Below are positions 1 through 15,724 of a stretch of DNA of 35,607 nt, piece after piece (position 1 is the stretch's first letter; every line of letters starts with the position of its first letter). The translations under genes were made by a program, and so were the position numbers. Under the pieces are notes generated by a model. It worked only from the letters and a program-made list of their open reading frames with translations, was not told where the DNA came from and made no database searches. Origin of the DNA: Chromatiales bacterium USCg_Taylor (GTDB taxonomy: Bacteria > Pseudomonadota > Gammaproteobacteria > JACCXJ01); the NCBI GenBank assembly GCA_002007425.1, contig MUGK01000011.1, positions 1 through 35,607 on the forward strand, given 5' to 3'.

Positions 1-708
1 TGGCAGTTCCGATATTTCTGGTTCCTCCGCCAGATCTTGCTCAAGAAGCTCTACCAGGCCCGGCCACAACTTCTCGCGGGTCTGAGAGTTGCGGGCCATA
101 CAGGCTGTGAAGCGGAATATATAAGACAGAAACGTGTCGCTTCTTTTCGCGATCTCTGTCCAGAGGCCATGATTGAGTACGCACACCCCAATATTGTAGG
201 GATTGACCTCGACTGCGCCTTCTCGTCGCGCGAGCGTGAAGAGCGCGTCCTCGTCCACGTAGAATGGGTCATAACCGTAGTGACTCGCTTTCGATGCCGG
301 TTCTTCTCGAGCATAGAATTGACGTTCCGAGTAACGCTCAAACAACAGGCCAACGTCGTCAAAGAAAAACGTGTCGCAGTCGGTCTGAAGGATCTGTGAA
401 GGGGCCAGCGCCTCAAGCTCGGAAAAGTTAAGCCACTTGTGGAGCACGGGATAGTGGGCAAGGGTTCGAAAGGCTCGAGGACGGATTCGTCTGATGGCAT
501 CGACGTACGCACCCCTATGATGGATGCTGACCGCATGGTCTTCGATCTCAGCGATGAAGGCGCAAGGATGTTCACCGTAAAGGAACACATGAATGGGTAG
601 GTTCTTGTTGTAGATACGCAGGCTTTTCACGCTGTAAATCAGCTGCTCGTGGTAGTTTGTCTTCTGCGGCGGACCGCTAGCGGAGAGGGAGTAGGTGACG
701 ATATTCAT
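1..708 (-). CDS. Partial GT-A fold glycosyltransferase-like protein (C-terminus off the left edge)
   Basis: The frame is open for 236 codons from an ATG at 708 to the window edge with no stop, so the gene is cut by the window. The product begins MNIVTYSLSASG and has no signal peptide. Residues 108-114 read QTDCDTF, a DxD-type motif of the kind that holds the metal and nucleotide sugar in GT-A transferases, and residues 169-178 (NPYNIGVCVL) resemble the N-x-G-hydrophobic segment that follows in such enzymes. It is probably cytoplasmic and sugar-transferring. It starts 42 bases after the stop of the 718-aa gene on the same strand, so the two are probably co-transcribed with the proline-rich repeat protein upstream. 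Donor, acceptor and exact GT family cannot be told from the sequence. Confidence 0.7.
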   Translation of the reverse strand, partial: MNIVTYSLSASGPPQKTNYHEQLIYSVKSLRIYNKNLPIHVFLYGEHPCAFIAEIEDHAVSIHHRGAYVDAIRRIRPRAFRTLAHYPVLHKWLNFSELEALAPSQILQTDCDTFFFDDVGLLFERYSERQFYAREEPASKASHYGYDPFYVDEDALFTLARREGAVEVNPYNIGVCVLNHGLWTEIAKRSDTFLSYIFRFTACMARNSQTREKLWPGLVELLEQDLAEEPEISELP

Positions 709-750
709 TGATTCCTGTCAATGTGCAGATTCACGTGTGAAAGTACCCGT

Positions 751-2907
751 TCAACCATGCTCCGGACTGGCTAACTTTTCGCTGCCGACATCAAAAAGAA
801 ACGAGTGTCTCTCAAGGAACGCTCTATTGTTTTCTATAGCTTCCATATACGCATCAAACTCATACCCCTCATAGGCTTTTTCAGCCAGCATCATCTTTCT
901 TTTCTTGTGCTTCCACTCTGAGCTCGCTGCCGTGTTAGGTTTGATCCGAAGATAGCCTCTGACAAGCGTATCCCAGTCAAGGAGTCGTTCTACGAATATC
1001 TGGTCAAATAACGCTCGCAGCCTTGGATCGCTCGATAACTTGTGCTGAGTCTTTTTATAAGCTTTTTTCAAGGCTATTCTTGCCAGCTTTTGCCCCTGCT
1101 GATAAACGCTGTCGCTGGTCCGATAAATACCCCGCAGGTGTCCAACTGTGCCAAGGGTAGAGCCCGATCTTCCCCAGATATAAGTTTCGTCCAATGTCAT
1201 GCCATGGAGTGCATCATGGGCGTAAAACTCTCTGTCCTGAGGGCCGGGAATTACGACAGCGTCATGATCCATGAAGATGATTTTTACTTGCCACTGGCCG
1301 GCGTCCCAAAAACTCTTTAAGCCGACGTTTCTGGCGACAAATGACTCGCCCCGAGAGTGACCTCTGACGGCCAATAACGTTCCCCAGAGCCTTCCGATTT
1401 CCTGCAATAGAGATAGATAGATCCCATCGGCTCTGGCGCGGTTTTCCGGTAAGCAAAACGCCGCCGCCAGATACTGCTTATGGCTTTGGTACGTGACATC
1501 TGGCGGTTGGTAGACACCCAGGACCTCCTCTATAATTGCATCTGCTAACCTCCGCGCATCGTGCCTTGAGTAAGCAATGCCTAAGCCCTCTTCGAAGTGC
1601 AGTCGGGGCCCTTCACTTGAAAGGTAGACAGCCAGCTTATCCAGTCGAAAAGAGCTCGTACCAGTGAGAAATGCTTGCGCGGGAGAAACAACTGCTATGA
1701 ATTGCGCGGTAAGTCCTAAGTCGCCCGGTAGGTCAGGCAGTTTCGCATAGCCTTCGGCTTTAAACGCGGCAACACCGTCGGCCATCGCTTGTCGCATCTC
1801 GCGAAATCCTTCTTCAAAAACTCGTGGTTCCGTGAAATAGGTGAGTGTCTGCACCTGTGCGCCGCCTGCCGGAATCGAGTATATGGTCGATCTGGAGATG
1901 TAATTGGCTATCGGCGCTTCTGTAGCATGCACGAGGCGATAAATGAGGCTGAGCTCGGCAGCGGCTTTGGCTTCATGCCGCAGGAGCCATTGCATATTTC
2001 CGCCGTCGAGCCGATGAGACGGTGCCACCTCATATCCATCGCGTGCGTAAACGACGGTCAGACCGAGTGGGCCTTTCCTGCCCGCCCTCTTAATTTCGAA
2101 CTCGATATCGCTTCCGGGCGGCTTAATAGTGAGGACAACCGTTGTTAGAGGATACTCAACGAGGGAGTTGATTTCAGAGCTGGTAACCTCGGACACCCAG
2201 TAGATCCGTGACGACGCACAGAGTTTCTTGAGGATACACGCCTCAAAATCGGGCAAGCGGCTTATGGCCCGTTCTACCTCAGCCTCCACGAATGAAGGTT
2301 GTGAAGTGTCCAGGTCTTTCGCTCCATCCGTAACGAGTAACTGACTAAGGATTTCGTCGACGACCTCGTCGGCTGTGAACAAATAGCGTGCAAGAGATAA
2401 CTTGCAATCGCGACGGGACAAGTCTATGAAGTCGTGTAATCCCGCGTCCGAGGTTCTCCGCCCTCTGATCTTTGCGTGAATGCGATTCAGTCTTTGGAGT
2501 CTGCGTCGAAACTCGGGAACGAACTGGCGAAGATCGGTTGTAGAGTATCCCTCCTTCAGCACCGAGCTCACCATTCCTGCGTTGAGTCCCGCTGCCTCCT
2601 TAAGATTCAGCCTGGTGAGTAAAAAATCGAAATCATCCAAATTTTCCGGATGAATCTTCAATATCTGATGCTCGAGCATCAGTACAGCCAGCCGCCTGAT
2701 ATTCCAGGCGGTCCCGGTTCTCTGTTGTGCAGCGGTAAGGAGTTTCAGACAAAGGCATTTGCTGTAGGTTTTATGCCGAAGCAATTCATCACATAAACCA
2801 TACGCCTGAGAGACGTGGTCAAACTGAGTTGTGAGAAAACTGAGGAGGCGGTCCTGCCCTGAAATGCTCGCCGGCCTTCCAAGATCTTTCATAATCTCAG
2901 ATTTCAA
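751..2907 (-). CDS. Large uncharacterised protein with weak kinase-fold landmarks
   Basis: 718 aa, soluble, no signal peptide or membrane segment seen; I do not recognise a named family. The N-terminal 230 residues are mainly helical. From about 250 to 560 the order of motifs resembles a protein or small-molecule kinase: strand plus Lys at 270-274 (FEIKR), a helix with Glu312 (RHEAKAAAEL), a loop ending in Asn527 (ARNVGL), then a strand plus acidic motif at 545-549 (FMDHD) that could be the metal-binding DFG equivalent. The usual catalytic HxD is not clearly present (RGES instead), so activity is uncertain. It lies between the repeat-protein gene (125-base gap) and the glycosyltransferase gene (42-base gap) on one strand. 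A modification enzyme acting on the repeat protein is a reasonable inference, not a demonstrated role. Confidence 0.8.
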   Translation of the reverse strand: MKSEIMKDLGRPASISGQDRLLSFLTTQFDHVSQAYGLCDELLRHKTYSKCLCLKLLTAAQQRTGTAWNIRRLAVLMLEHQILKIHPENLDDFDFLLTRLNLKEAAGLNAGMVSSVLKEGYSTTDLRQFVPEFRRRLQRLNRIHAKIRGRRTSDAGLHDFIDLSRRDCKLSLARYLFTADEVVDEILSQLLVTDGAKDLDTSQPSFVEAEVERAISRLPDFEACILKKLCASSRIYWVSEVTSSEINSLVEYPLTTVVLTIKPPGSDIEFEIKRAGRKGPLGLTVVYARDGYEVAPSHRLDGGNMQWLLRHEAKAAAELSLIYRLVHATEAPIANYISRSTIYSIPAGGAQVQTLTYFTEPRVFEEGFREMRQAMADGVAAFKAEGYAKLPDLPGDLGLTAQFIAVVSPAQAFLTGTSSFRLDKLAVYLSSEGPRLHFEEGLGIAYSRHDARRLADAIIEEVLGVYQPPDVTYQSHKQYLAAAFCLPENRARADGIYLSLLQEIGRLWGTLLAVRGHSRGESFVARNVGLKSFWDAGQWQVKIIFMDHDAVVIPGPQDREFYAHDALHGMTLDETYIWGRSGSTLGTVGHLRGIYRTSDSVYQQGQKLARIALKKAYKKTQHKLSSDPRLRALFDQIFVERLLDWDTLVRGYLRIKPNTAASSEWKHKKRKMMLAEKAYEGYEFDAYMEAIENNRAFLERHSFLFDVGSEKLASPEHG

Positions 2908-2985
2908 GGCTGCCGGAGATATAAGCTTAATGATCTATAGATGGGAATACACAGCCGTAGGACTGGGTGGGTTTGGTGGTCGTAG

Positions 2986-3018
2986 GAGTGCGGTAAGAGG
3001 TGTTTTCTTACCGCACTC
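2986..3018 (-). repeat. 12-bp perfect inverted repeat between two co-directional genes
   Basis: Arms at 2986-2997 and 3007-3018 (GAGTGCGGTAAG and its complement) enclose a 9-base loop. The hairpin begins 15 bases past the stop of the repeat-protein gene and about 80 bases before the 718-aa gene. No T-run follows on the minus strand, so a simple intrinsic terminator is unlikely; partial termination or protection of the upstream mRNA from 3' decay are the more likely roles. Confidence 0.6.
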
Positions 3019-3032
3019 TTCCGTATCACACT

Positions 3033-3641
3033 CTAGCGGCTACGAAAAAAACCTTTTTTGCTACCGCCGAGAGGCTTGCCACCAGGAGGCTTGCCAGCCG
3101 GAGGCCTGCCAGGAGCGGGCGGCTTGCCCGTTGGAGCCGGAGGTCTGCCGGGGGCAGGAGGCGTGCCACCGTAAGGATAACCGCCTCCGCCGCCACCGCC
3201 CTTACCCCCCTTACCGCCCTTACCTTTCCCTTTTCCGGGAGGCGGTACGATTCCAAGCGCGATGATCAGGGCGTTAAGTAACTCTACAGCACAGTACTTC
3301 TTGAGTATGAGCGAGACTACTTCGTCTGACCCGTAATCACCATAGTAGTAAGGCTTAGGGCCACCTGGAGGTTTACCAGGGGCAGGCGGCCTACCTGGAG
3401 CTGGAGGTTTACCAGGGGCAGGTGGCCTGCCTGGAGCTGGAGGTTTACCAGGGGCAGGTGGCCTGCCTGGAGCTGGAGGTTTGCCAGGAGCAGGCGGCCT
3501 ACCTGGAGCTGGAGGTTTACCAGGGGCAGGCGGCTTGCCAGTTGGAGCCGGAGGCCTGCCGGGAACGCGTGGTTTGCCAGCTGGAACTGGAGTTATGCCA
3601 GGAACGCCGCCCCGACCTGGTATGATTTTCTGGTTCGCCAT
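3033..3641 (-). CDS. Proline/glycine-rich repeat protein
   Basis: 202 aa. The start is well supported: a strong GAGGAGG stands 5 bases before the ATG at 3641. Layout: a basic N-terminus (MANQKIIPGRGG), then residues ~20-92 built of PAPGKP/PAPGRP hexamers, a central non-repetitive block at ~97-130 containing YYYGDYG, a hydrophobic stretch (VVSLILKK, ELLNALIIALGIV) with the only Cys, a Gly/Lys tract, a second short PPAPGRP block, and a basic tail. There is no N-terminal signal peptide; the central hydrophobic segment may insert in a membrane or drive assembly. At DNA level the repeats form a 36-bp minisatellite. The gene follows the giant multicopper oxidase by 178 bases and precedes the kinase-like and glycosyltransferase genes. 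It could be a structural, matrix or modified substrate protein; function unknown. Confidence 0.75.
   Translation of the reverse strand: MANQKIIPGRGGVPGITPVPAGKPRVPGRPPAPTGKPPAPGKPPAPGRPPAPGKPPAPGRPPAPGKPPAPGRPPAPGKPPAPGRPPAPGKPPGGPKPYYYGDYGSDEVVSLILKKYCAVELLNALIIALGIVPPPGKGKGKGGKGGKGGGGGGGYPYGGTPPAPGRPPAPTGKPPAPGRPPAGKPPGGKPLGGSKKGFFRSR
3367..3540. repeat. 36-bp tandem repeat (coding minisatellite)
   Basis: Four full units (3367-3402, 3403-3438, 3439-3474, 3475-3510) and a partial fifth share the core GGAGGTTTACCAGGGGCAGG. Each encodes 12 residues (two PAPG[KR]P hexamers) on the minus strand. Units differ by a few mostly silent changes, so copy number may vary between strains. The units abut with no spacers. 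Confidence 0.9.
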
Positions 3642-3819: not shown

Positions 3820-6800
3820 TTAGAGCCTCAGATCCTTGTTAACTGGCTGCCTGATGAAGCGATCCAGATCATCCTTCTTGGGGACGACTGGACTGATCCG
3901 CCGCAATTGCGCTATCGGGCTACAAGCGGCATTAGACTGCGATGGTGTATTATTACTGCCCACTCGAAAAATGCCCCAAGCCCCTTGTCGCGCTTGGATG
4001 GGAACGAAGACTGTATATAAGTAGTCGCCTGCGCGGCCGCTTTCGCCACCGGTCTTATCCACCACGATATCAAAATGATCTGTCGAGCCATGATTGTCGC
4101 GCGAGCCTATCCACTGCGAGAGGTTATTATCACCCATTTCCCTGGAATCGTTCTTATAGGGATTTCGCTGCCAAACATGACCATGCAGTGAGAAGACTTG
4201 AGACGTCCCCGTTCCAAACGGATGCATCAGGCGAAATCTAGCCTTGTCCCCAACCTCAGCCGTGAAGATCGGGGTTTGGGGATCATTCTGCGCCTGCTGT
4301 ATGAGCTGGTTCGACAACATGCACGAGAAGTCTTTAGTTGCGTTGCCTGCATAGCGGAAGGTCATTGGCTCCGTTCGGTAATTAACGGCGCCGCTGTTCC
4401 CGTTTGAGATTATCATGGCATCACTGGTCATCAACGCAAACTCACGAAACTTCGTCTTATTCAGCAATGTGATCGTTGCTGAGGCGCGAGTTTTGGGCGG
4501 TGGCCCCCCGGATGGGTCACAGTCCGCCAGGCTTCCTGCGTCACCGCACTGCCAGCTCGAACCCTGCGGTTCGATAATCATCGCCCCGAAGAGACCGTTG
4601 ATATGCTGATACACAGGGTCAGACGGGAACAGATTGAGCGAACCGAATTCGACCGGAGTATAGACCAGCTTTCCGCCAGCGTCTCGATCAATCTTACCTG
4701 CGTACCATTGATACTTGATGGTCTTACCGAATCCCGCTACCTGGTCCGGCTGGCCCTGCCTGTTCCAACCTACGTTCATGCCACTGCTGCGAGCGGCATC
4801 GTAGCTAAGGAGTTGGGGATGTAGGCCAACGACGCCAGACATTTTCGACTTGAAGACCGGCTTTTGATTGACAGGGTTAACGCCATTGAACGGCGACGCC
4901 ATGAACAAGTTCTGCTGAAACACTTGCGCTGATGGCTCAAGCGCGTTACTTAAATTGACCTCAATACAGTCCCCGGCGTTAGCGCGCAGGATAAGCGGTT
5001 CGACGGGCACTCCGGGTTTTAACCTGCCTTGAGCATCCAAATCTTCTGTGCGGACATAGATGACCCCGGTCTCACTGCGAAGTGTCTGCCCGCGACTATT
5101 AAACACAATTTGCCCCTTCGGAGGATTAGAGCCCGGCACCGGAGTGATATTCGCCAGGGCCTTCTGCGCGGTCACGGCTGTAACGTTAAAGACTCGTTTC
5201 ACCGCGGGCGGGGGTAAGATCGCAGGACAGGTCGCATAGGTCACATTCGCGGCCGGCCCGACGGGATTGTTCGGAAGTGGCTGCAATTTATTCGCGACTT
5301 TGGTAGGGTCATAGGAGCGGAAAAGACCCCACATGCCATTCGCAATGCCAATATCGTCTAAGCTCGGACTGTACAAGTAATCGACGCAATTTGCCTGCGA
5401 CATGCCATCCGGGCATTGGCGACCGTTGTTCGGCGCTGAGGAAGATGGTACGCGAAAGAGCATCTCAAAGTGCTCGGAGAGCGCCATCGCCTGAGCGCTG
5501 CGATAGCCGGAGTTCTTCCACGACGGCTCGGAAAACCAGGTCGGGCCTTCGAGATTAAACTGGTGGGCAAACAAATGTGCTCCGACCAGTACGCGAACCT
5601 GCACGTTATCGTTCTGATAGGCGCGCATCAAAGGAGTAGCCGGGTCACCGTTCGGAGGCGCGTTGCTCGCTTGCTTCAAGGCCGAGTCGTAGGCGTACGA
5701 CATGTCATTAGCCGGCCCCACCCGCCACGCGATTGGGTCGTTGCGATAGTTAACTGACTGCGTGCCAGGCGAAGTGAAATTGCCAGTGGTAACCAGCTCC
5801 GGTCGTGCCTTAGTCGGGCTGCCCGACGGAGCGTTAATGGCGTACGCCGGGTCTATCCACCCTATCTTCGGGTCAGCGCTCGGTTGTGTTTTCGGGGGAT
5901 TCGTGCCACCTATTGTGGCCCAGGCGTATGCGAGTTGCAGATCCTGAAACTCGAGCAGGAATTCACGATAACTATCCTTGGTGTTACTCGTGATTATTCT
6001 GGCTTCCCAACTCGTTGGTCCGCCATCGGACCGCGCGCCGAATGGCGTCGCGCCATCGTTGGATGTCCAGGTTGAACCCATTGGCTCGACCACTAGTCCG
6101 GCATAAAGACCTACCTGTTGATGTGTGGATGGTCCAAAGTGATCGTGAGTAAAGACTGTTCGCAATGTGCGGTCGACGCCTGAATTGTCCACTAGAGGAT
6201 CGAGATACCAACGCTGGATAGTCGTCTGCGCACCCTCCCATTCCGCTGCACACTGTGCCGGAGGCTGAGGTCCGGAACAGATTTGAGCCGGAGGCGGTTT
6301 AAGCGCCGGTGGACCGGCCGCGCATCCCGGACAAGGCGTCCAGGAGCCACCGGGCTCGTTGATAGCGTGTATTATTTCCTGCACTTCTTCCGGGGCAAAC
6401 GTGCCGTCTTCATAGTTGAAGCCGTTCCCCGCCCCGTCAGAGGACGTCACATCAAACTTCACGAGGTGAATGTGCTGACCCAGAATGTCGGTGGGCGTGC
6501 GCACTTGGAAATCATCAACCTGATAGTAGTTAGGGACCAGATTGGTATGCCAGTACTCGATTATGTCTCCCGAATTACCACGGAAGAATAACGGTTCAGT
6601 CTTGCGGGTGGTGGCGATAGTTGGAGCAACGTCATCCCACAAGGTGAGGATGCGTTGTTGCGGAAAGTGCCAGCGCTTTTTATTGAAGACCACATCCATT
6701 TCAATAGCCGCAGCCTTGTAGACGCGCTTCTTCCCAACTGCGTTGCCATCATCATCGACCGCCGGATCCGCGAAAGGAGCGCCCATCTGCGGACCTAAAG

Positions 6801-9306
6801 GTAGGCCGTTCACAATGAAGCCGGTGGGCGGTTTCTGTTGAATGGCTGGTGGGGATGGGCACGAGCCAGGGGTTCCGTCCGGGAACGATGTCGGGTAACA
6901 CCGCTTCCTGAAGAAGCTGATGGCCACCTTCTCCACAGGGGTTCCTGCTTCAGCAAGCTGGGTGGCGTTGATCGTTTCCAGGTCCTTACTCCAATCAAAT
7001 AAGTCATGACTCTCAAACTTAATCGAGCCTCCAGTAACGAGGTGGCGCGGCAAGCCGCCGTCCATGAAGCCACCGGCTCCGTCCGGCGCGAAATCAAGCG
7101 GCGGATGCGGTGCGCGGGCGCCTGCCCTGCCAGGAATGAAAAAAGGAAATCCGGGATTGACCGTTACATTCTGCCCGGTCGTATCGGGCGTTGCGGGAGT
7201 TCCGTAAACGATCTGTCCCTGATCGATGAAGACCGGTGACGGCAACGGAGCCATGGGAAGCGTCGGCAACGGCACGATCGCGGGGTTGGGCGTCCCCGCC
7301 TTGATTTCACCGTCAGGCAGCGCACGCGTGCCGCTCACAGGAATTCCATCCTTGTTGAGTTGCGAGCCGGCTTCAAACACGTCATGGGTCCGCCACATCG
7401 CCCACATGCCCGCGGCGAAGTGCGGGTAGAAGTGGCAGTGGAAGATCGAATCTCCCACCACCTTGTTCCGATTGCCGCTGCCGTTATAGGTCATCTCCAG
7501 CGTGTAGCTGGCGCCAGGGCTAATCATCTGACTATCCAGGTAGCTTCCTTGGTCGCTGTTGGGCGACTGCAGCCACTGGTGTGCGTGCTGGTGATGGACA
7601 TGCGTCACGTCTCTTCCCCCGTGAAGAATCCTGAACTTGACGTGATCGTTGATGTAGCTGTGATAGACGTTGGATGGGTCGTCCGGGAAAAACGCTTTCG
7701 TGGCCTTAGGAAGCGGAGCAAGCGTATAAGGGAAACCTGATGTTGGCGTCCTTGCATTCGCGCAGGTCGGATGGGGCGATGTTGGCGGAGTTGTGCCTTC
7801 AAAAGTCGAGGTGGTGTTGCAGGGTGGAACGAGGTTCGTGTTGGTTGCCGGGTTGAAGGGTTGGGTTGAAAGATTGTTGGAGTTTGCCGGCTTATCGACC
7901 AGCATCGCAGGATCGCCCACCGACCACGCGCTAAGGAAAAACTCTTCAAACTTACAATCTACGCAATCCCCCATCGGGCCCACGCCAATCCGGTTAGCGT
8001 AAATTTCTGCTCCAATGCCGCCGGTGCCGTAATTGATGGCGAAGGCATCTTGGCCGGCTTGAGTCATGGCCGCCGTGTCCTTTTCCGCTTGCGTCGCATT
8101 TGCAGCTACATTGGACAAGATTGGAAAGGCCTGCGACGCAATCGGACTCAGTCCGCCATGATAGATAACCGTGATCTCGCGATAGGGCTGTTTGCGATCC
8201 GGCGAAGCTGGGTTCTGGCAAAACAGTGGATCGATTTTTCCACCCCGGGGTGCTGTCCCATTGTTCTCTGCGTTGCACGGTGGGTCGGGCTTGTTCGGAT
8301 TACCATTGGCGCCAGGGAATCGGCCGGCGTTCGGGCCCGTGATCATCGCAGTTAGATCACTGTGCACAATATTATTTTTGGCATCGAGCATCTTAAGGAT
8401 GGGAGTGCCGTTAGCATCGGTGGCATCATAATTGATGAGTGGATAGTTATCCGTCGTATTCAGCGACCCGTCTGCTTTCTTGATGACTTTGATCTGTCTG
8501 GCATTGGGGCCAGTGAACTTTAAGGTGCATGGAACTGCGGCAGTGCAAGCGCCAGCGCTTATACTCGCATTCGCCGGCAGGCTCTTGGCGTTGTAGGTAG
8601 CGCGCGCTAAAGCGTCGGCCGTTACCTGACTGCGATACCATTCCGCTTTTGCAGGTTGGACGTTTAAGGCCCCAAAGAGCCCTCGCGTTAATTGGTCTCC
8701 AAGGGTGGTCGTATCACCCATCGTGTAGAGTAGAAAGGTTCCCTCGGCCTTCGCGTAAAGAGTGTATTTTTGTGTCTGCGAAGGATTTGCCAGGCTTGAA
8801 TTATTTTTACCCACAAACGAACCATCATCCTGTGGGCCTGTTACCCATTGCATACCCTGAACGTGCAAAGACACCTCTTTTGTACCCGTACTAGCCGCGG
8901 GCAGTATTGTGTTTGAAAACGTGTTTGCGGGTATTGAATTCGTAAACGTGATCGTCAGGCAGTCTCCGACATTTGCGCGCAAGACGAGCGGACGTGGTCT
9001 CTTGGTGTCCTTGAGCCTAACCGGATTGCTGCCAGGCACGGTATCCTTCTTGAGCGCAAAAACCAACCCATCGGGAATTGCCGCTCCCAAGCGGTTCAGC
9101 ATGATAGGCTGTGATAGGGCCACCACATCGGCAGTGATCGTCCGCTTACAGACGGACAGAGAGGCTATGGTTTGAGCGCCTGCCGGGCCAGAGATGAATA
9201 GGAGAAACAGAATCAGGGAGCTGAAGAAGCGTGCCGAGGATACTCTTGCGGCCAAGCCTATTTTCTTCGATTCGCCGAGCGCACGGCTACGAGTGCTCAA
9301 GATCAT
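3820..9306 (-). CDS. Giant secreted multicopper oxidase, MofA/MnxG-like
   Basis: 1828 aa with an N-terminal export signal (hydrophobic 27-40, likely cleavage after AGA at ~44). Copper motifs are explicit: HVHHQHAHQW at 569-578 and HCHFYPHFAAGMW at 623-635, the latter a type-1/trinuclear HCHxxxHxxxGM signature. Further His clusters are HIH at ~945-947 and HDHFGPSTH at ~1054-1062, plus HGH near the C-terminus. Several cupredoxin-like units are repeated; later copies keep the surrounding pattern (GMWGLFR at ~1324-1330, GAWGIFR near the end) but have lost the HCH ligands. Size and motif style recall the large bacterial Mn(II) oxidases MofA and MnxG, but substrate cannot be assigned from sequence. 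It is divergent from the beta-propeller gene; a SCO chaperone and cytochrome c fusion lie nearby. A weak 5-bp hairpin (3799-3815) follows its stop. Confidence 0.9.
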   Translation of the reverse strand: MILSTRSRALGESKKIGLAARVSSARFFSSLILFLLFISGPAGAQTIASLSVCKRTITADVVALSQPIMLNRLGAAIPDGLVFALKKDTVPGSNPVRLKDTKRPRPLVLRANVGDCLTITFTNSIPANTFSNTILPAASTGTKEVSLHVQGMQWVTGPQDDGSFVGKNNSSLANPSQTQKYTLYAKAEGTFLLYTMGDTTTLGDQLTRGLFGALNVQPAKAEWYRSQVTADALARATYNAKSLPANASISAGACTAAVPCTLKFTGPNARQIKVIKKADGSLNTTDNYPLINYDATDANGTPILKMLDAKNNIVHSDLTAMITGPNAGRFPGANGNPNKPDPPCNAENNGTAPRGGKIDPLFCQNPASPDRKQPYREITVIYHGGLSPIASQAFPILSNVAANATQAEKDTAAMTQAGQDAFAINYGTGGIGAEIYANRIGVGPMGDCVDCKFEEFFLSAWSVGDPAMLVDKPANSNNLSTQPFNPATNTNLVPPCNTTSTFEGTTPPTSPHPTCANARTPTSGFPYTLAPLPKATKAFFPDDPSNVYHSYINDHVKFRILHGGRDVTHVHHQHAHQWLQSPNSDQGSYLDSQMISPGASYTLEMTYNGSGNRNKVVGDSIFHCHFYPHFAAGMWAMWRTHDVFEAGSQLNKDGIPVSGTRALPDGEIKAGTPNPAIVPLPTLPMAPLPSPVFIDQGQIVYGTPATPDTTGQNVTVNPGFPFFIPGRAGARAPHPPLDFAPDGAGGFMDGGLPRHLVTGGSIKFESHDLFDWSKDLETINATQLAEAGTPVEKVAISFFRKRCYPTSFPDGTPGSCPSPPAIQQKPPTGFIVNGLPLGPQMGAPFADPAVDDDGNAVGKKRVYKAAAIEMDVVFNKKRWHFPQQRILTLWDDVAPTIATTRKTEPLFFRGNSGDIIEYWHTNLVPNYYQVDDFQVRTPTDILGQHIHLVKFDVTSSDGAGNGFNYEDGTFAPEEVQEIIHAINEPGGSWTPCPGCAAGPPALKPPPAQICSGPQPPAQCAAEWEGAQTTIQRWYLDPLVDNSGVDRTLRTVFTHDHFGPSTHQQVGLYAGLVVEPMGSTWTSNDGATPFGARSDGGPTSWEARIITSNTKDSYREFLLEFQDLQLAYAWATIGGTNPPKTQPSADPKIGWIDPAYAINAPSGSPTKARPELVTTGNFTSPGTQSVNYRNDPIAWRVGPANDMSYAYDSALKQASNAPPNGDPATPLMRAYQNDNVQVRVLVGAHLFAHQFNLEGPTWFSEPSWKNSGYRSAQAMALSEHFEMLFRVPSSSAPNNGRQCPDGMSQANCVDYLYSPSLDDIGIANGMWGLFRSYDPTKVANKLQPLPNNPVGPAANVTYATCPAILPPPAVKRVFNVTAVTAQKALANITPVPGSNPPKGQIVFNSRGQTLRSETGVIYVRTEDLDAQGRLKPGVPVEPLILRANAGDCIEVNLSNALEPSAQVFQQNLFMASPFNGVNPVNQKPVFKSKMSGVVGLHPQLLSYDAARSSGMNVGWNRQGQPDQVAGFGKTIKYQWYAGKIDRDAGGKLVYTPVEFGSLNLFPSDPVYQHINGLFGAMIIEPQGSSWQCGDAGSLADCDPSGGPPPKTRASATITLLNKTKFREFALMTSDAMIISNGNSGAVNYRTEPMTFRYAGNATKDFSCMLSNQLIQQAQNDPQTPIFTAEVGDKARFRLMHPFGTGTSQVFSLHGHVWQRNPYKNDSREMGDNNLSQWIGSRDNHGSTDHFDIVVDKTGGESGRAGDYLYTVFVPIQARQGAWGIFRVGSNNTPSQSNAACSPIAQLRRISPVVPKKDDLDRFIRQPVNKDLRL

Positions 9307-9697: not shown

Positions 9698-11842
9698 ATG
9701 GGCAACAAATCCTGCGCACGTAGTCAAATCAGCGAGACAAAATCTCGTCTCGCGATCCTATACATCCAGCTGCTCATAATGCTTGTGTCGCAGTTGGCTT
9801 TAAACGTTCCAGAGGTTTATGCGCAAGATAAGAGTAGATACATTCGGCCACCAACAAGGTTTGAGGGATCAATGGCCACTGGTTCAAATTCGCCCGCACA
9901 GGATAATTTGAGCCACGCAGGAGAGGATAAAGCGACAGCGGCAGGCTCGAGCGGCTTGTCCGCCCCAAGCGATCGGCCCCGGCAACCACAAAAATATTTG
10001 CGAGAGGGCGTAGCGGTCGAATTCACGATTGAACCCGTCGCAGCAAGAAAAGGAAGAGCCTCCGAACTGTTGGAAGGCACAGAGGCGACGATACGGTTCA
10101 AAATCACCGACACTAACGCGGGTAAAGCCCTAAGTAATCTTCGTCCTGCGGCGTGGATCGATCAGCGCGAGGCCGAAAGAGCTTCGGATCCGAGGGCGTG
10201 TCGCGAGAAAGTTCAATCGTTTCTGCAACCGAGCTTCAATAAGCGCCCTGACATCGACCTCAATGCCTACTTCGTTCTGGCCCTGAATCACGAACCCAAC
10301 ATTTCAGTCATAGATCCACTGTCGGGTTTCGGGGGAACCAAACTCTATGCCCTGGTCCCCTTGTCCGGCGCTGGAGAAGATTGGGTCATGAGCGCCGACG
10401 AAAAAAGGCTCTATGTCTCCATGCCGCTCGTTAATCAAATCGCCGTGATCGATGCCCTCACCTGGAAACTGATCGCGAACATTGATGCGGGCGTGAACCC
10501 GACGCGCATTGCGTTGCAGAACGATGGGAAATACCTGTGGGTGGGAAACGATGGCCCTGAAGACAAAGACAGCGGGGTCACTGTGATCGATACGGCAATA
10601 TTGAAAGTTGCAGCTCAACTCGATACAGGGATGGGACATCATGAAATTGCCTTCACTGGCGATGATCGCTGGGCCTTCATATCGAATAAACAAAGCGGAA
10701 CGCTGTCAGTAATAGACGTGCGCAAGCTCGCCGGGGTCACGGACATTAAGGTCGGCTCGCTGCCGACGGCATTGGCTTTTTCGCCTCTCAGCAAGGCGGT
10801 CTATGTGGCTAATGAAGGTGATGGAACGATAGTCGCGGTTGACGGGTTGCGCTTCGAGATCTTGGCGCGCATGAAAGCTCAACCCGGACTCCATATGGTA
10901 CGCATCCCGCCCGATGGCCGCTTTGGCTTCGTGGTCAATCGAACGGCGAGCACGGTCCACATTTTCGACTTGGCTACGAATCGTCTGGTCCATGCTGTGC
11001 CCGTTGGGCCCGCCCCCGATCAGATTACCTTTACCAGACAATTCGCTTATGTGCGCTCCGCTGACAGCGAGTTTGTCACCATGATCAAGATCACGGACCT
11101 CGGTAAGCAAGCTCAGGAAGTGGCAGTTACTCGTTTTCCTGCTGGCCAGAGAGCGCCACAAGAATCGCCCTCCACGTCGCTCGCCGATGCAATCGTTCCG
11201 GCCCCGGAGGAGGGTGCGGTGCTGGTCGCGAACCCTGCCGACAAAATGATTTACTTTTACACTGAAGGCATGGCCGCACCGATGGGTAGTTTTCAGAATT
11301 ACCGGCGCGAGCCCAAAGCAGTGCTCGTCTTGGATAATAGTTTGCGCGAGACCCCGCCCGGAGTTTATACCACCACTGTCCGGCTCACCGGACCGGGCCG
11401 CTACGACGTGGCATTTCTGCTGGATTCCCCTCGCCTGTTCAACTGTTTCGACCTCACCGTCGCGGAGAACCCCGGCTCGCCGAAGCAAAAAGCAGTCGCA
11501 ATCAAGATTGAGCCGCTCTTGAAAGATACGAGCCTTCGTGTTGGTGCAAGCTATAACCTACGTTTCAAGGCAAGCGACTCGAATTCCAACCAACCGCAGG
11601 CGGATCTGGAGGATATGGGTGTGCTGGTATTTCTCGCGCCGGGCATCTGGCAGCAACGCGAATGGGCCAAGCCGCTCGGCGATGGTATCTACGAAATGAG
11701 CTTTTCGCCGCCGCAAGCAGGCGTGTACTATGTCTACTTCCAGTGCCCTTCGCTGGGAGTCCTATTCAACCACATACCACACTTAACTCTGAATGCGACG
11801 AAGGGCGACGGTGTGTCCAGGGCAAAAGCGCCTGAGCCTTAG
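9698..11842 (+). CDS. Exported YVTN-type beta-propeller protein with C-terminal beta-sandwich domains
   Basis: 714 aa with a Sec-type signal (hydrophobic ~18-41, cleavage near VYAQ). After a low-complexity linker, residues ~110-160 form an Ig-like strand region. From ~190 to ~470 come propeller blades of the YVTN/cytochrome-d1-like kind: repeated variants of 'ADEKRLYVSMP...NQIAVID', 'KYLWVGND...VTVID', 'RWAFISNK...LSVID', 'KAVYVANE...IVAVD' and 'RFGFVVNR...VHIFD'. Two further beta-sandwich segments follow (about 545-600 and 620-705; the last resembles YtkA-like domains). No haem motif is present. It is divergent from the multicopper oxidase and convergent with the SCO gene. It may act as a periplasmic or extracellular scaffold or redox partner; the ligand is unknown. 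Confidence 0.85.
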   Translation: MGNKSCARSQISETKSRLAILYIQLLIMLVSQLALNVPEVYAQDKSRYIRPPTRFEGSMATGSNSPAQDNLSHAGEDKATAAGSSGLSAPSDRPRQPQKYLREGVAVEFTIEPVAARKGRASELLEGTEATIRFKITDTNAGKALSNLRPAAWIDQREAERASDPRACREKVQSFLQPSFNKRPDIDLNAYFVLALNHEPNISVIDPLSGFGGTKLYALVPLSGAGEDWVMSADEKRLYVSMPLVNQIAVIDALTWKLIANIDAGVNPTRIALQNDGKYLWVGNDGPEDKDSGVTVIDTAILKVAAQLDTGMGHHEIAFTGDDRWAFISNKQSGTLSVIDVRKLAGVTDIKVGSLPTALAFSPLSKAVYVANEGDGTIVAVDGLRFEILARMKAQPGLHMVRIPPDGRFGFVVNRTASTVHIFDLATNRLVHAVPVGPAPDQITFTRQFAYVRSADSEFVTMIKITDLGKQAQEVAVTRFPAGQRAPQESPSTSLADAIVPAPEEGAVLVANPADKMIYFYTEGMAAPMGSFQNYRREPKAVLVLDNSLRETPPGVYTTTVRLTGPGRYDVAFLLDSPRLFNCFDLTVAENPGSPKQKAVAIKIEPLLKDTSLRVGASYNLRFKASDSNSNQPQADLEDMGVLVFLAPGIWQQREWAKPLGDGIYEMSFSPPQAGVYYVYFQCPSLGVLFNHIPHLTLNATKGDGVSRAKAPEP

Positions 11843-11908: not shown

Positions 11909-12478
11909 TTATTCGCGGTTCGCGGCTTCCGTGATCACTTTTACCAGTGTAGCCGGTGGTGTGAGGCCGTAAGCTCTCGTCCAATAGCCGGTCACATCAT
12001 TACCGACTAGGATCATCGGCGTATGGTCGTTCTTGTCGCCGACCGCGGCTCCGAGCGCTTGCAGTAACGCATCAATCTCAGCTTTGTTGCCGGTCACAAA
12101 TGTCCATCCCGGTCCAGCCTTAAACTTTGCGGCAAAGTCATGCAGTCTTTCGGGAGTGTCATTAGCAGGATCGACGCTGACAGAAATCAACCGTACCTCG
12201 AGCCCGATGCGTTCCCCCAGGTCCTGCTGGAGCTTACGAAACATTGCGGTCAAAGGAGGGCAGATGGTAGTGCAAGTGGTAAAAATAAAGTTGATGGCAA
12301 CCGTCTTGCCTTTAATCAGATCGGCATAAAAACTAAGCCGCTTGCCATTCTGATCGTAGACTGCGGTATCCGGGATCCGCAGTGATGAGATAGCACCTGT
12401 ATTCGCCGTCACTGAACCAGCCGTGCTACCTGGCACCGACATCAATGCAACGAGCATCACCAGTACTTTGATCGGCAT
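11909..12478 (-). CDS. SCO1/SenC family copper chaperone / thiol-disulfide protein
   Basis: 189 aa from the ATG at 12478, chosen because it opens a proper signal peptide (MPIKVLVMLVALMSVPGSTA) and has GGAGAAG just upstream; an in-frame ATG at 12631 would add a non-signal extension overlapping the preceding gene. The thioredoxin-like fold carries the copper-binding CxxxC (C69-TTI-C73) and the distant His152 (DHTPMILV). SCO proteins deliver copper to, or reduce cysteines of, copper enzymes, classically the CuA site of cytochrome oxidase. Here it is the last gene of the minus-strand operon and lies near the giant multicopper oxidase, which is a plausible client. Confident in family, less so in client. 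Confidence 0.93.
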   Translation of the reverse strand: MPIKVLVMLVALMSVPGSTAGSVTANTGAISSLRIPDTAVYDQNGKRLSFYADLIKGKTVAINFIFTTCTTICPPLTAMFRKLQQDLGERIGLEVRLISVSVDPANDTPERLHDFAAKFKAGPGWTFVTGNKAEIDALLQALGAAVGDKNDHTPMILVGNDVTGYWTRAYGLTPPATLVKVITEAANRE

Positions 12479-12527
12479 TGATTTCTTCTCCGTCTGCGCG
12501 ATCTTCTCGATCCGCTCGTGGCCCGGG

Positions 12528-14147
12528 TCAATTGCTGTCGATCCAACCGCTCGCGGGCAGGAACTGTTTCTTTTCCAAATCAATGGTAACGACGTATGCC
12601 CCCATCGCCCCGATGCGACGATTGAGCCCATAAGTGACTGCTGGTGTCACCCCCGTGGGATACTCATAAAGTCCTTCAAGAGCTTGTATCAGCTTTTCCC
12701 GGCTCAAGTCTTTACCAGCCCGTTTCAAACCCTCAATCAATATCTTAGCGGCACTATACACTGAACGTTGCACGCCCAAATGATGCGCGGGCAGCTTGTG
12801 TTTTGTCGCGAGGTCGCGAAATTCTTCCGTTCTAGTGTGGTCGTCGGGCGATGAAGGAACGGAGAAGAATATTTTCTTGGCGAAGCTTGGAGGAGCACCG
12901 AAAATTTCATTTCCCGCAATTGCTCCGAGGTAAAAGGTAGGCGACCAACGCAGCTCACTAGCCTCTTTCATTAGTGCTATGGCTTCCCTGCTCGTACCTA
13001 AGAAGAAAATGACACTCTTGCTTGTCTGTTTCAACTTTGCGGCGAAGCCCGGGACATCAGAATCCGCGTTCGGATACCCGTAAGGTTCGGGTGGACCACA
13101 GCCGCTCTTTCGACACTGATCCGTGATGGCTTCAAGCACACCCTTGGCCATTTCGTCATCAGAATAAACAATCAGCACAGCCGCTCTTTTCACCGGCATT
13201 CTCTGACAAGCGAAGTTGACAAGCGCGCGAGCTTGTCCTTCCACTCCCGAGAGTATATAGAAGACGTGACGATTCAAAGGATAGCCGCCCTGCGGATAGA
13301 GAGTGAGTGGACCCACCATTGGCACTTCCAAATTGTCCATGAGCGCGGCGAGCTCCTTGTCAGCACCCGCGGTAAAAGCGCTCGTCATTGCGAAGACCTG
13401 TTCGTTCTGAATGAAACGCTTGACGATCGCGCTGGTGGTTATGGGCGTATCGGACGTTGCGTTGATTTTCAGTTCGATTCTGCGATTGTAAATTCCGCCC
13501 CGACTATTCACTTCTTCAAAGAAGGCCGTCGTCACCGCTTTGATGGCCTGGCCAATTCCCGCCAAGTCGGCTCTGGCCGGAATAGTAGTTCCGATCGTGA
13601 TGCTGTTCTCTGTCAGTCCAGGATCGTGGTCTTTGCCAAGTCGCTTCAGATATGCAACGAGATCTCCCAGGTCCTCTTGCGACAGTTGGTAGTGGGGCAT
13701 GACATTGAGCAGTTTGTTGCCTGCCGGATCAAGACCACGCGTAATGGCCAGTTCAAGCGCCCGGTCGGTGTAAGGCGGATGCGTGCGTCCCTCTGGATGA
13801 GTCACTCCATACGGCTTTGTTAGCGCTTCCCAGGTAAGATTTGAGGGAACGACGCCACCCTCAGGCTTACCTCGTCCATCGAGTCCGTGGCAGTTCGCGC
13901 AGGGCATCGTCCTGCCCGGCACTTCTACTGATGATTCGCCCAAATAAGCCGAAATCTTGCGCCCACCGGGACTGGTGCCGTGCACATAGATCTGTTTGCC
14001 GGACTTCTCCTGAGCCGTTAATAGATATTGTGCCGCCCCACCCGCAAAGACAAGATCGCCAAATGAACCGGGGAGGATAAGGCCAGCAATACTAGCCAGA
14101 CAGATGATGTATGGTAGTGTGCACCTGTCATGCGCAGGTAAGCTCAC
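12528..14147 (-). CDS. Cytochrome c domain fused to a type-1 periplasmic (branched-chain amino-acid type) binding protein
   Basis: 539 aa. A signal/anchor at ~12-36 is followed by a class I cytochrome c: haem motif CANCH at 83-87 and a likely axial Met150 (NVMPHY). From ~183 to 530 the chain reads as a Peripla_BP_6/LivJ-like solute-binding protein (SITIGTTIPARAD..., FFEEVNSRGGIYNRRIEL, VPMVGPLTLYP, and so on). No LIV-type permease or ATPase accompanies it, so the binding domain may sense or bind a ligand rather than feed a transporter. The ATG overlaps the stop of the upstream ABC ATPase gene by 4 bases, implying translational coupling; SCO follows 49 bases downstream. The fusion joins haem electron transfer to ligand binding. 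Family calls for both halves are firm; the role is inferred. Confidence 0.9.
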   Translation of the reverse strand: MSLPAHDRCTLPYIICLASIAGLILPGSFGDLVFAGGAAQYLLTAQEKSGKQIYVHGTSPGGRKISAYLGESSVEVPGRTMPCANCHGLDGRGKPEGGVVPSNLTWEALTKPYGVTHPEGRTHPPYTDRALELAITRGLDPAGNKLLNVMPHYQLSQEDLGDLVAYLKRLGKDHDPGLTENSITIGTTIPARADLAGIGQAIKAVTTAFFEEVNSRGGIYNRRIELKINATSDTPITTSAIVKRFIQNEQVFAMTSAFTAGADKELAALMDNLEVPMVGPLTLYPQGGYPLNRHVFYILSGVEGQARALVNFACQRMPVKRAAVLIVYSDDEMAKGVLEAITDQCRKSGCGPPEPYGYPNADSDVPGFAAKLKQTSKSVIFFLGTSREAIALMKEASELRWSPTFYLGAIAGNEIFGAPPSFAKKIFFSVPSSPDDHTRTEEFRDLATKHKLPAHHLGVQRSVYSAAKILIEGLKRAGKDLSREKLIQALEGLYEYPTGVTPAVTYGLNRRIGAMGAYVVTIDLEKKQFLPASGWIDSN

Positions 14148-15724
14148 GGCACTCCTACAAGGACGTTCATACGCTGCTGAACGAGGCCCTGGATTTTCCG
14201 GGCGAGGCTAAGGAAGGCTTCCGGATCAACTCCGGTTGGCTCTTCGAGATCCGCGTCCGGCTGCAGGCAGCACACCTTCGCCGCGGCCCAAGGGAACCTC
14301 TTAACTGCCATCTGCTGCTGTTGTTTCGTCATGCAAAAGATGGTTTCAGCTTTAGCCGCAAGTCCGGTGCTTAGGTTTTGCGAACGGTGTTCGAAGGTCG
14401 GTATCCCTAACTGTCCCAGCGCTCGCTTCGCTCCAGTGGTCATCGGCGCGCCGGGCTCTGCCGACAAGCCGGCGCTGACGGCCTTTACTCCACTGACGCC
14501 CAGTGCTTCGAGCGGCACCTTTAGACGCCGCGCGATCTCGCCGCGGCAGACGAAGACAAACAGACGCTGCAAGGCATTGGGATGTCTTGTGTGAATCAAA
14601 TGACAAGAATGAGTTCGGATGACCATCCACACCTCAGCGGAAGCTTGAAGCCTCGCTGATGGTATGAAGCCGGGAGGTAGATGGACCCGAAACTCAGGGC
14701 CGCAGTCCACTCGAGCTTCAATCTTTGAGCCGCTACGATCGAGTCGCTTCAGCCGCCCACTGATCACGTTGCCAACGCCGACCATCTCGGGGCGCGCGGA
14801 CGCGAGCAGGATATCGCCGGCGCGGATGCCGAGGCGGACTTCCGCCCCTGGCGCAACCCTTGTCGGCGGAGCCTCAAGCTCGATAGAGCTACCGGCTATA
14901 CGGCAGGTCATAGTGCCGTTCTGCTCTTGGATTCCAACCACCGTCGCGTCAAAAAGGTTTTCGAAGCCGGCAAACTGTGCCATGGTTTCGTGACGCGGTG
15001 TGGACACAACGTCAAGAGGCGACCCTTCCGCCACAATCCGCCCCTGGTCGAGGGCAACCACCCGCTCTCCCAGGGCAAAGACTTCCTCATGAGCATGGGT
15101 GACGTAGAGTATGGGGATCCGCCGTGCTTCGTTCCATCTGCGCATGTCATCGATGATCCCGGTCTTGGTGCGAACGTCCAATGAAGACAGCGGCTCATCC
15201 AGGAGCAACACGCAGGGTTCGGGGACCAGAGAACGCGCCAGCGCAACCCGCTGTTGTTCGCCTCCAGAAATCTCCCGCGGCAGCCGCTTGCGAAGGTGCG
15301 CAATCTGAAACGATTCCAGGATATTGGCCATTCGCCGTTCGCGCTCTTTTGCATCCAGCCGGCGGAGGCCGTAGGCGACATTCTCTCGTACGTTTAAATG
15401 AGGAAAGAGCGCAAGGTTTTGGAAAACAAAGCCAACTCCTCGTTGCGCCGGTCCGACGCTTATCCGCTGTCCTGCGTCGAAGAGCACCCTCTCCCCGATG
15501 GCGATGCGGCCCTGCTCCGGATCGGACAAGCCGGCGATGCAGCGCAGAAGCGTCGACTTTCCCGCCCCCGACGGGCCGAGAAGGATGGTGATCCCCGGCA
15601 AGACCTTGAATTCTGTTTCAAGCTGGAAACCGGAATCTTTGCATGTCGCGTAACACTTGCGCACGCGGACCTCGAGTGCGTTGGCTGCCCCCGTTCGTTG
15701 ATGGGACTCTGCTACGGCGCTCAT
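14144..15724 (-). CDS. Tungstate/molybdate-type ABC ATPase fused to a LMW tyrosine phosphatase/arsenate reductase-like domain
   Basis: 526 aa. The ABC domain is complete: Walker A GPSGAGKST (50-58), Q-loop Gln102, signature SGGEQ (153-157), Walker B LLLDEP (173-178) and switch His210. Residues ~255-375 are TOBE-like regulatory repeats as in ModC/WtpC. Residues ~387-520 are an added domain with the LMW-PTP pattern: a P-loop FVCRGEIAR keeping CX5R (C393, R399), AVSAGLSAEPGAPMT, HRSQNL, and a DPxG-like site read as EEPTG (494-498), where the catalytic Asp is Glu. The usual second Cys and Ser/Thr of the P-loop are missing, so catalysis may be impaired. Coupled by overlap to the cytochrome-binding protein gene and one base from the permease gene. 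It powers oxyanion uptake; the extra domain may sense or regulate. Confidence 0.92.
   Translation of the reverse strand: MSAVAESHQRTGAANALEVRVRKCYATCKDSGFQLETEFKVLPGITILLGPSGAGKSTLLRCIAGLSDPEQGRIAIGERVLFDAGQRISVGPAQRGVGFVFQNLALFPHLNVRENVAYGLRRLDAKERERRMANILESFQIAHLRKRLPREISGGEQQRVALARSLVPEPCVLLLDEPLSSLDVRTKTGIIDDMRRWNEARRIPILYVTHAHEEVFALGERVVALDQGRIVAEGSPLDVVSTPRHETMAQFAGFENLFDATVVGIQEQNGTMTCRIAGSSIELEAPPTRVAPGAEVRLGIRAGDILLASARPEMVGVGNVISGRLKRLDRSGSKIEARVDCGPEFRVHLPPGFIPSARLQASAEVWMVIRTHSCHLIHTRHPNALQRLFVFVCRGEIARRLKVPLEALGVSGVKAVSAGLSAEPGAPMTTGAKRALGQLGIPTFEHRSQNLSTGLAAKAETIFCMTKQQQQMAVKRFPWAAAKVCCLQPDADLEEPTGVDPEAFLSLARKIQGLVQQRMNVLVGVP

Follow-up and report, generated by a model that had tools for sequence, protein, structure and literature searches.

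A predicted kinase-fold enzyme and a repeat-bearing precursor beside an MnxG-like multicopper oxidase: a candidate peptide modification cluster in uncultured bacteria

A precursor gene beside a gene for a modifying enzyme is the known plan of RiPP-like maturation (RiPP, ribosomally synthesised and post-translationally modified peptide), and the matrices of plants and animals are the best-known setting for hydroxylation followed by glycosylation of repeat proteins. SelO (YdiU) transfers adenosine monophosphate (AMP) and SidJ glutamate (PMC12599244), and MchC, a remote SelO relative, is required for microcin modification (PMC3281104); SelO also lacks the aspartate of the kinase HRD motif (PMC3281104). 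Here we describe three genes, P0003, P0001 and P0002, from Chromatiales bacterium USCg_Taylor. They lie at the start of contig MUGK01000011.1, in an assembly of 2.96 Mb and 246 contigs, and the first 35,607 nucleotides of that contig form the window analysed. As the original prediction stated, the genes share a strand; they are consecutive, on the minus strand, within positions 1–3641. That prediction took them for a repetitive acceptor and two modifying enzymes. Because the plan of precursor plus modifying enzyme is known, we place the set within RiPP-like maturation. On balance, sequence comparisons favour a cluster for producing a ribosomal repeat protein that is modified after translation and works with an MnxG-like multicopper oxidase.

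Homologues of P0001 are rare: 13 loci, in metagenome-assembled genomes (MAGs) of Gammaproteobacteria and in the phylum of a Pyrinomonadaceae MAG. Apart from the window's own genome, P0001 occurred neither in the 56 genomes closest to it nor in a phylum-wide sample of 399 genomes around it. A class-level scan of 369 genomes yielded only genome G164 (92% identity) plus one spurious match, while a scan of a genome collection found locus L007 (a Gammaproteobacteria MAG, on the same contig as that of G164) and locus L008 (a Pyrinomonadaceae MAG, 81%). Profile searches around the genome of L008 then gave ten further homologues, down to 32% identity; plasmids (searched with tblastn), PHROGs and viral contigs returned nothing for P0001. 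With the window and L007 counted, 12 of the loci can be tested for a precursor, L008 ending approximately 70 bp before the enzyme, and in 11 of these a small precursor open reading frame (ORF) lies just upstream of the enzyme homologue. The original prediction would have fallen had these homologues mostly occurred without a repeat protein; instead, a small repeat or low-complexity peptide is the rule. Cluster proteins of the window, from a Gammaproteobacteria genome, share 69–81% identity with those of L008/L019 and L036, which come from Pyrinomonadaceae or relatives of them; this suggests that the cluster moved horizontally between phyla. Mis-binning of the window is unlikely, as its contig also carries dnaG and a sigma factor gene of the rpoD type (both named by inspection).

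P0003 has the composition first described, with many Pro, few Ser/Thr and one Cys (58 Pro, 46 Gly, 21 Lys, 11 Arg, 4 Ser, 4 Thr and 1 Cys in 202 residues), and the strong Shine–Dalgarno sequence reported for it is present directly 5' of its ATG (GAGGAGG). The repeat unit is GKPPAPGRPPAP, the gene contains a DNA repeat of 36 bp (4.7 copies, 94% match), and there are no collagen-type Gly-X-Y triplets. P0003 had zero matches in Pfam and NCBIfam even at E of 5. A hidden Markov model (HMM) built without it, from nine other loci, recovered its core (DEVVSLILKKYCAVELLNALIIALGIV; E=1.5e-8 in 350,000 six-frame residues), and the held-out cores of five other loci were also recovered, the weakest with E=0.001. 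The contig of L007 holds only the last approximately 22 codons of its repeat protein (L007:1–70), which match the P0003 C-terminus. On the evidence of the held-out model and this kept C-terminus, P0003 is a real gene. A match in genome G178 (L004/L006; E=0.003) was rejected as spurious, being a short out-of-context frame (1236–1538) between unrelated genes, as was a core match in L010 (E=1.35) inside a helicase-like gene.

The precursors share an architecture: a beta-strand-like segment leads into a helix-like one with the pattern A-x-E-L-L-x-A-L-x-x-A-L-G, and behind these come a block rich in Lys and Gly and then the repetitive tail. The conservation of the core points to it as the probable recognition part, and the general hallmark of RiPPs, a small precursor with a conserved core beside one or more modifying enzymes, is thus present if that role is right. 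The tails differ: KKDGGG in L034, GGGGK in L035, KGKD in L036, KTTTGGG in L026 and Ser/Lys-rich sequence in L016 and L018. Only the window and L007 have Pro-rich repeats, the other tails being Lys/Gly, Thr/Gly or Ser/Lys; Lys and Gly are common to every precursor, and Pro is dominant in the window only. Two tandem precursors are found in L017 (the second weaker, E=0.0003), and the precursor at L025:9697–10446 has two core-like segments in tandem followed by K/G/S/T repeats.

P0001 was originally listed as a 718-residue protein. The gene stands; the length does not, because the TTG start reads TTA in the 81%-identical L008, so that the conserved ATG at residue 6 (window position 2892, 713 residues) is the better start. 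Its ratio of non-synonymous to synonymous substitution (dN/dS) of 0.35–0.38 against two orthologues indicates purifying selection on what is, by this measure, a real gene. Pfam and NCBIfam gave zero matches even at E of 5, and a PDB profile search with alignment A4 gave none. The proposed kinase landmarks held up well: K273, N527, D547 and D549 are invariant across the 13 homologues, at identities down to 32%, and E312 is nearly so, with Asp in L017 and Glu elsewhere. An AlphaFold2 model from the 13 sequences reached a pLDDT of 87.6 and a pTM of 0.88; an earlier run with three near-identical sequences (pLDDT 32.6) was unusable. Foldseek comparison of the model with the PDB placed SelO/YdiU first (E=0.013, probability 1.00, TM 0.42 on the target), followed by protein kinases. 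K273 falls on a strand and E312 on the next helix, while N527 and D547/D549 surround the strands that come behind the catalytic loop; the position of the HRD aspartate (D166 of protein kinase A) is S522; these equivalences come from motif alignment rather than from coordinates. The predicted structure is thus kinase-like, a nucleotide-binding fold being the other feature on which the original prediction depended, and since the Foldseek scores are modest we claim no descent from SelO. As neither refuting outcome was found, an acceptor with modifying enzymes is the best reading of these genes, with the amendment that the conserved pair is the peptide and the kinase-fold enzyme, P0002 being unconserved.

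Among described proteins, SelO and MchC/MceJ come closest to P0001, sharing the nearest predicted fold, the kinase Lys, the metal-binding Asn and Asp and the loss of the HRD Asp; as proposed here for P0001, MchC is a cluster-encoded modifier of a ribosomal peptide (PMC3281104). P0001 differs from SelO in lacking a detectable sequence match, in its motif (GESFVxRN versus HGVMxTDN), in an extra helical N-terminal region of approximately 230 residues and in its partners. Plain phosphorylation is not the default prediction for P0001, because the HRD Asp is lost as in SelO, and the groups transferred by SelO and SidJ are AMP and glutamate.

The original prediction treated the three genes as a unit. 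They are real, but it missed a linked partner: the gene unit extends upstream into a giant multicopper oxidase of 1828 residues directly upstream of P0003, which scores 970 bits to NF041487 (MnxG). The oxidases of the clusters score 970–1062 bits to this model, and so resemble MnxG in size and at approximately 1000 bits while falling well below the curated cutoff of 3100; manganese oxidation is a putative function, by likeness to the MnxG model. The oxidase adjoins the precursor–enzyme pair in seven loci, the window included, with orthologues on the same strand in L034–L037 and divergent in L025 and L026. Across 162 genomes of the class to which the genome of L008 belongs, all five enzyme carriers have the oxidase clade (62–71% identity; G369 holds only a fragment) versus one of the 157 others. 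That one, G904, has a cluster-type GT32 gene on a contig that ends inside the oxidase. The overlap would arise by chance with a probability of approximately 7e-9 (hypergeometric, shared ancestry ignored), a figure weakened by genome relatedness. SCO1-type proteins occur in the window, L034, L037 and L026, their likeness to the window copy being judged by inspection. We know of no MnxG linked to such a peptide cluster.

P0002 carries a DxD motif. It had no match in Pfam (including PF23452), NCBIfam (E of 5) or the PDB, and no homologue among all genes of the other loci, where different glycosyltransferases stand in its place. The glycosyltransferase beside the P0001 homologue exceeds the cutoff of the Pfam family for the plant enzyme hydroxyproline O-arabinosyltransferase (HPAT; PF23452, gathering 23.9) in L007 (36.2 bits) and L008 (33.3 bits). 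When four whole genomes were searched for the HPAT family, not even the L008 gene was recovered, although it passes the direct scan, so the negatives of that search carry no weight. PhyH-type 2-oxoglutarate (2OG) dioxygenases are present in six related loci, the gene overlapping the enzyme stop codon in L036 and lying close behind the enzyme in L034 and L037, and GT25 is present in four. TauD, GT2, GT32-like, GT47 and other glycosyltransferases, luciferase-like monooxygenases and methyltransferases are also found in related loci. The original prediction noted that the acceptor lacked hydroxyl residues unless its proline were hydroxylated. Judging by gene neighbours, the hydroxylases and glycosyltransferases of related loci are candidates for this missing acceptor chemistry and could supply the hydroxyls, but the Pro repeats are confined to the window and L007. 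Hydroxylation may fall on Lys, on Pro or on both, given that every precursor has Lys and Gly in common with the others and Pro dominates in the window only. As separate observations, the protein of L035:4845–5747 (+) adds a further glycosylation family of plant type, matching the GINT1 N-terminal domain of plants (PF24793, 219 bits), and L034, L036, L037 and L019 each keep paired small (approx. 140 residues) unnamed paralogues with a W-x-N-(S/T)-N motif (e.g. L036:11904–12732).

The pattern at sequence level is therefore a precursor of core and tail, then the kinase-fold enzyme, usually glycosyltransferases, often 2OG hydroxylases, methyltransferases and luciferase-like monooxygenases, and usually an adjacent oxidase. 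All of the chemistry suggested for the cluster, modification of P0003 included, is inferred. The core would dock the precursor on the kinase-fold enzyme, which would use adenosine triphosphate on it, nucleotidylation or activation being likelier than plain phosphorylation because the HRD aspartate position holds Ser. Dioxygenases would hydroxylate Lys and/or Pro of the tails, glycosyltransferases would glycosylate the newly made hydroxyls and, once exported, the product would work alongside the oxidase on the cell surface, perhaps forming a matrix that binds metal or oxide. Plant extensin maturation (prolyl hydroxylase, the GT95 enzyme HPAT and the GT47 enzyme ExAD) is comparable in its Pro-rich repeats, in the L007 and L008 glycosyltransferases above the HPAT cutoff and in the GT47 and dioxygenases of the L008 cluster; it differs in that the dioxygenases here are PhyH-type, most precursors are Lys/Gly-rich and P0002 is not an HPAT. 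Collagen Lys hydroxylation with GT25 offers 2OG dioxygenases, GT25 and Gly/Lys repeats as likenesses, but P0003 has no Gly-X-Y. A fuller proposal, possible but distinctly more tentative, is that a kinase-fold enzyme of an undescribed family, 2OG hydroxylases and glycosyltransferases would together make hydroxylated glycoproteins from Lys/Gly or Pro repeat proteins; these would be bacterial analogues of extensin or collagen, acting as a matrix or as partner of an MnxG-like metal oxidase.

Several observations weigh against a modified repeat protein. The SelO match is weak, and hhalign of the P0001 family profile against one E. coli SelO sequence found no match (a single SelO sequence only). L027 is the sole testable locus lacking a core-type precursor; just a 25-residue Lys-rich ORF (MGKAKAKPKPFVKKGQAPRTPRSRG) precedes its enzyme gene (L027:6195–6410). 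One PhyH query against the window's own genome found nothing and the contig ends after P0002, so hydroxylation in the window rests on its 92%-identical relative L007. In L016 and L018 the pair occurs with no glycosyltransferases, hydroxylases or oxidase in reach, which makes these components optional. There the neighbours are housekeeping or unrelated genes only, as might be expected if the pair were a metal-homeostasis or stress protein with its regulator: the Lys/Gly-rich peptide would be structural, metal- or polyanion-binding and unmodified, the enzyme a pseudokinase chaperone or regulator, and the glycosyltransferase, PhyH and methyltransferase genes an adjacent exopolysaccharide or O-antigen island. 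The absent HRD aspartate, the variation in glycosyltransferase content by locus and the failure of P0002 to match any of them fit this too. We consider it unlikely, given that three loci have a PhyH gene tightly adjoining that of the enzyme and that the same hydroxylase, GT25, methyltransferase and luciferase-like families recur around the enzyme in distinct genomes.

That SelO is the nearest fold, and MchC is needed for microcin modification, would also suit a secreted antibacterial conjugate, in which the kinase-fold protein would modify the precursor terminus with a small group, in the manner of MchC/MceJ on siderophore microcins. The long polycationic repeat tails and the oxidase linkage do not suit it, and siderophore, immunity and exporter genes were not recognised in the loci read, making this quite improbable. 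Least credible of all is the lanthipeptide-like route, in which P0001 would phosphorylate and dehydrate Ser/Thr of the precursor and Cys would close thioether rings. LanM is likewise a kinase-fold enzyme adjoining a precursor peptide, and several other precursors have Ser/Thr-rich tails. Yet the LanM alternative raised originally gained no support: neither the window nor distant members matched LanM or LanC in Pfam or NCBIfam even at E of 5–10, no LanM structure was among the top 50 Foldseek matches, and P0003 is poor in Ser, Thr and Cys. A modified repeat protein working with the oxidase is therefore the explanation that we favour.

The features of the window are collected in table 1. P0002 is truncated at base 1 by the contig end and its 3' end is missing. 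An inverted repeat matching the hairpin between P0003 and P0001 is present 3' of the L007 precursor gene, and the hairpin is probably an attenuator or mRNA end. Further upstream, the binding-protein half of the cytochrome c fusion is of the branched-chain amino-acid type, and this fusion adjoins the oxidase in L037 and L026 also. Next to it (14144–15724, −) is an unusual fusion of an ATP-binding cassette transporter ATPase with a C-terminal low-molecular-weight phosphatase-like domain (PF01451); the ATPase is ModC-like by position, adjoining ModB/ModA-like genes.

Table 1. Features of the cluster and its surroundings in the window.
Feature	Position	Strand	Remarks
P0003, putative precursor/acceptor, 202 amino acids	3033..3641	−	GKPPAPGRPPAP repeats flank conserved core on both sides
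Conserved core DEVVSLILKKYCAVELLNALIIALGIV, candidate recognition sequence	3246..3326	−	HMM from nine other loci; alignment A5
K/G block directly after P0003 core	3180–3245	−	
Perfect 13-bp hairpin separating the precursor gene from that of the enzyme	2986..3018	−	fold z=−3.6
P0001, predicted kinase-fold enzyme	751..2892	−	713 amino acids from ATG; 718 if TTG at 2907
P0002, putative GT-A glycosyltransferase	1..708	−	DxD motif
MnxG-like giant multicopper oxidase, 1828 amino acids, linked partner	3820..9306	−	
YncE/cytochrome d1-like beta-propeller	9698..11842	+	near oxidase module in L037 too
SCO1/SenC protein	11909..12631	−	PF02630, 71.8 bits
Cytochrome c fused to periplasmic binding protein	12528..14147	−	PF13458 + PF00034; kept in L037, L026

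No description of the gene set was found in the titles and abstracts of the open-licence literature on bacterial HPAT, on kinase-fold RiPP enzymes, on MnxG and on RiPPs that involve multicopper oxidases or hydroxylysine. What appears to be new is the family of the enzyme, the core of the precursors and the link with an oxidase. Two families without a name or domain model, the precursor and the kinase-fold enzyme, gain a conserved set of partners and a proposed chemistry. If the proposal is true, hydroxylation followed by glycosylation of repeat proteins would extend to uncultured bacteria, and the cluster may help to show which partners giant MnxG-like oxidases have on the surface of the cell.
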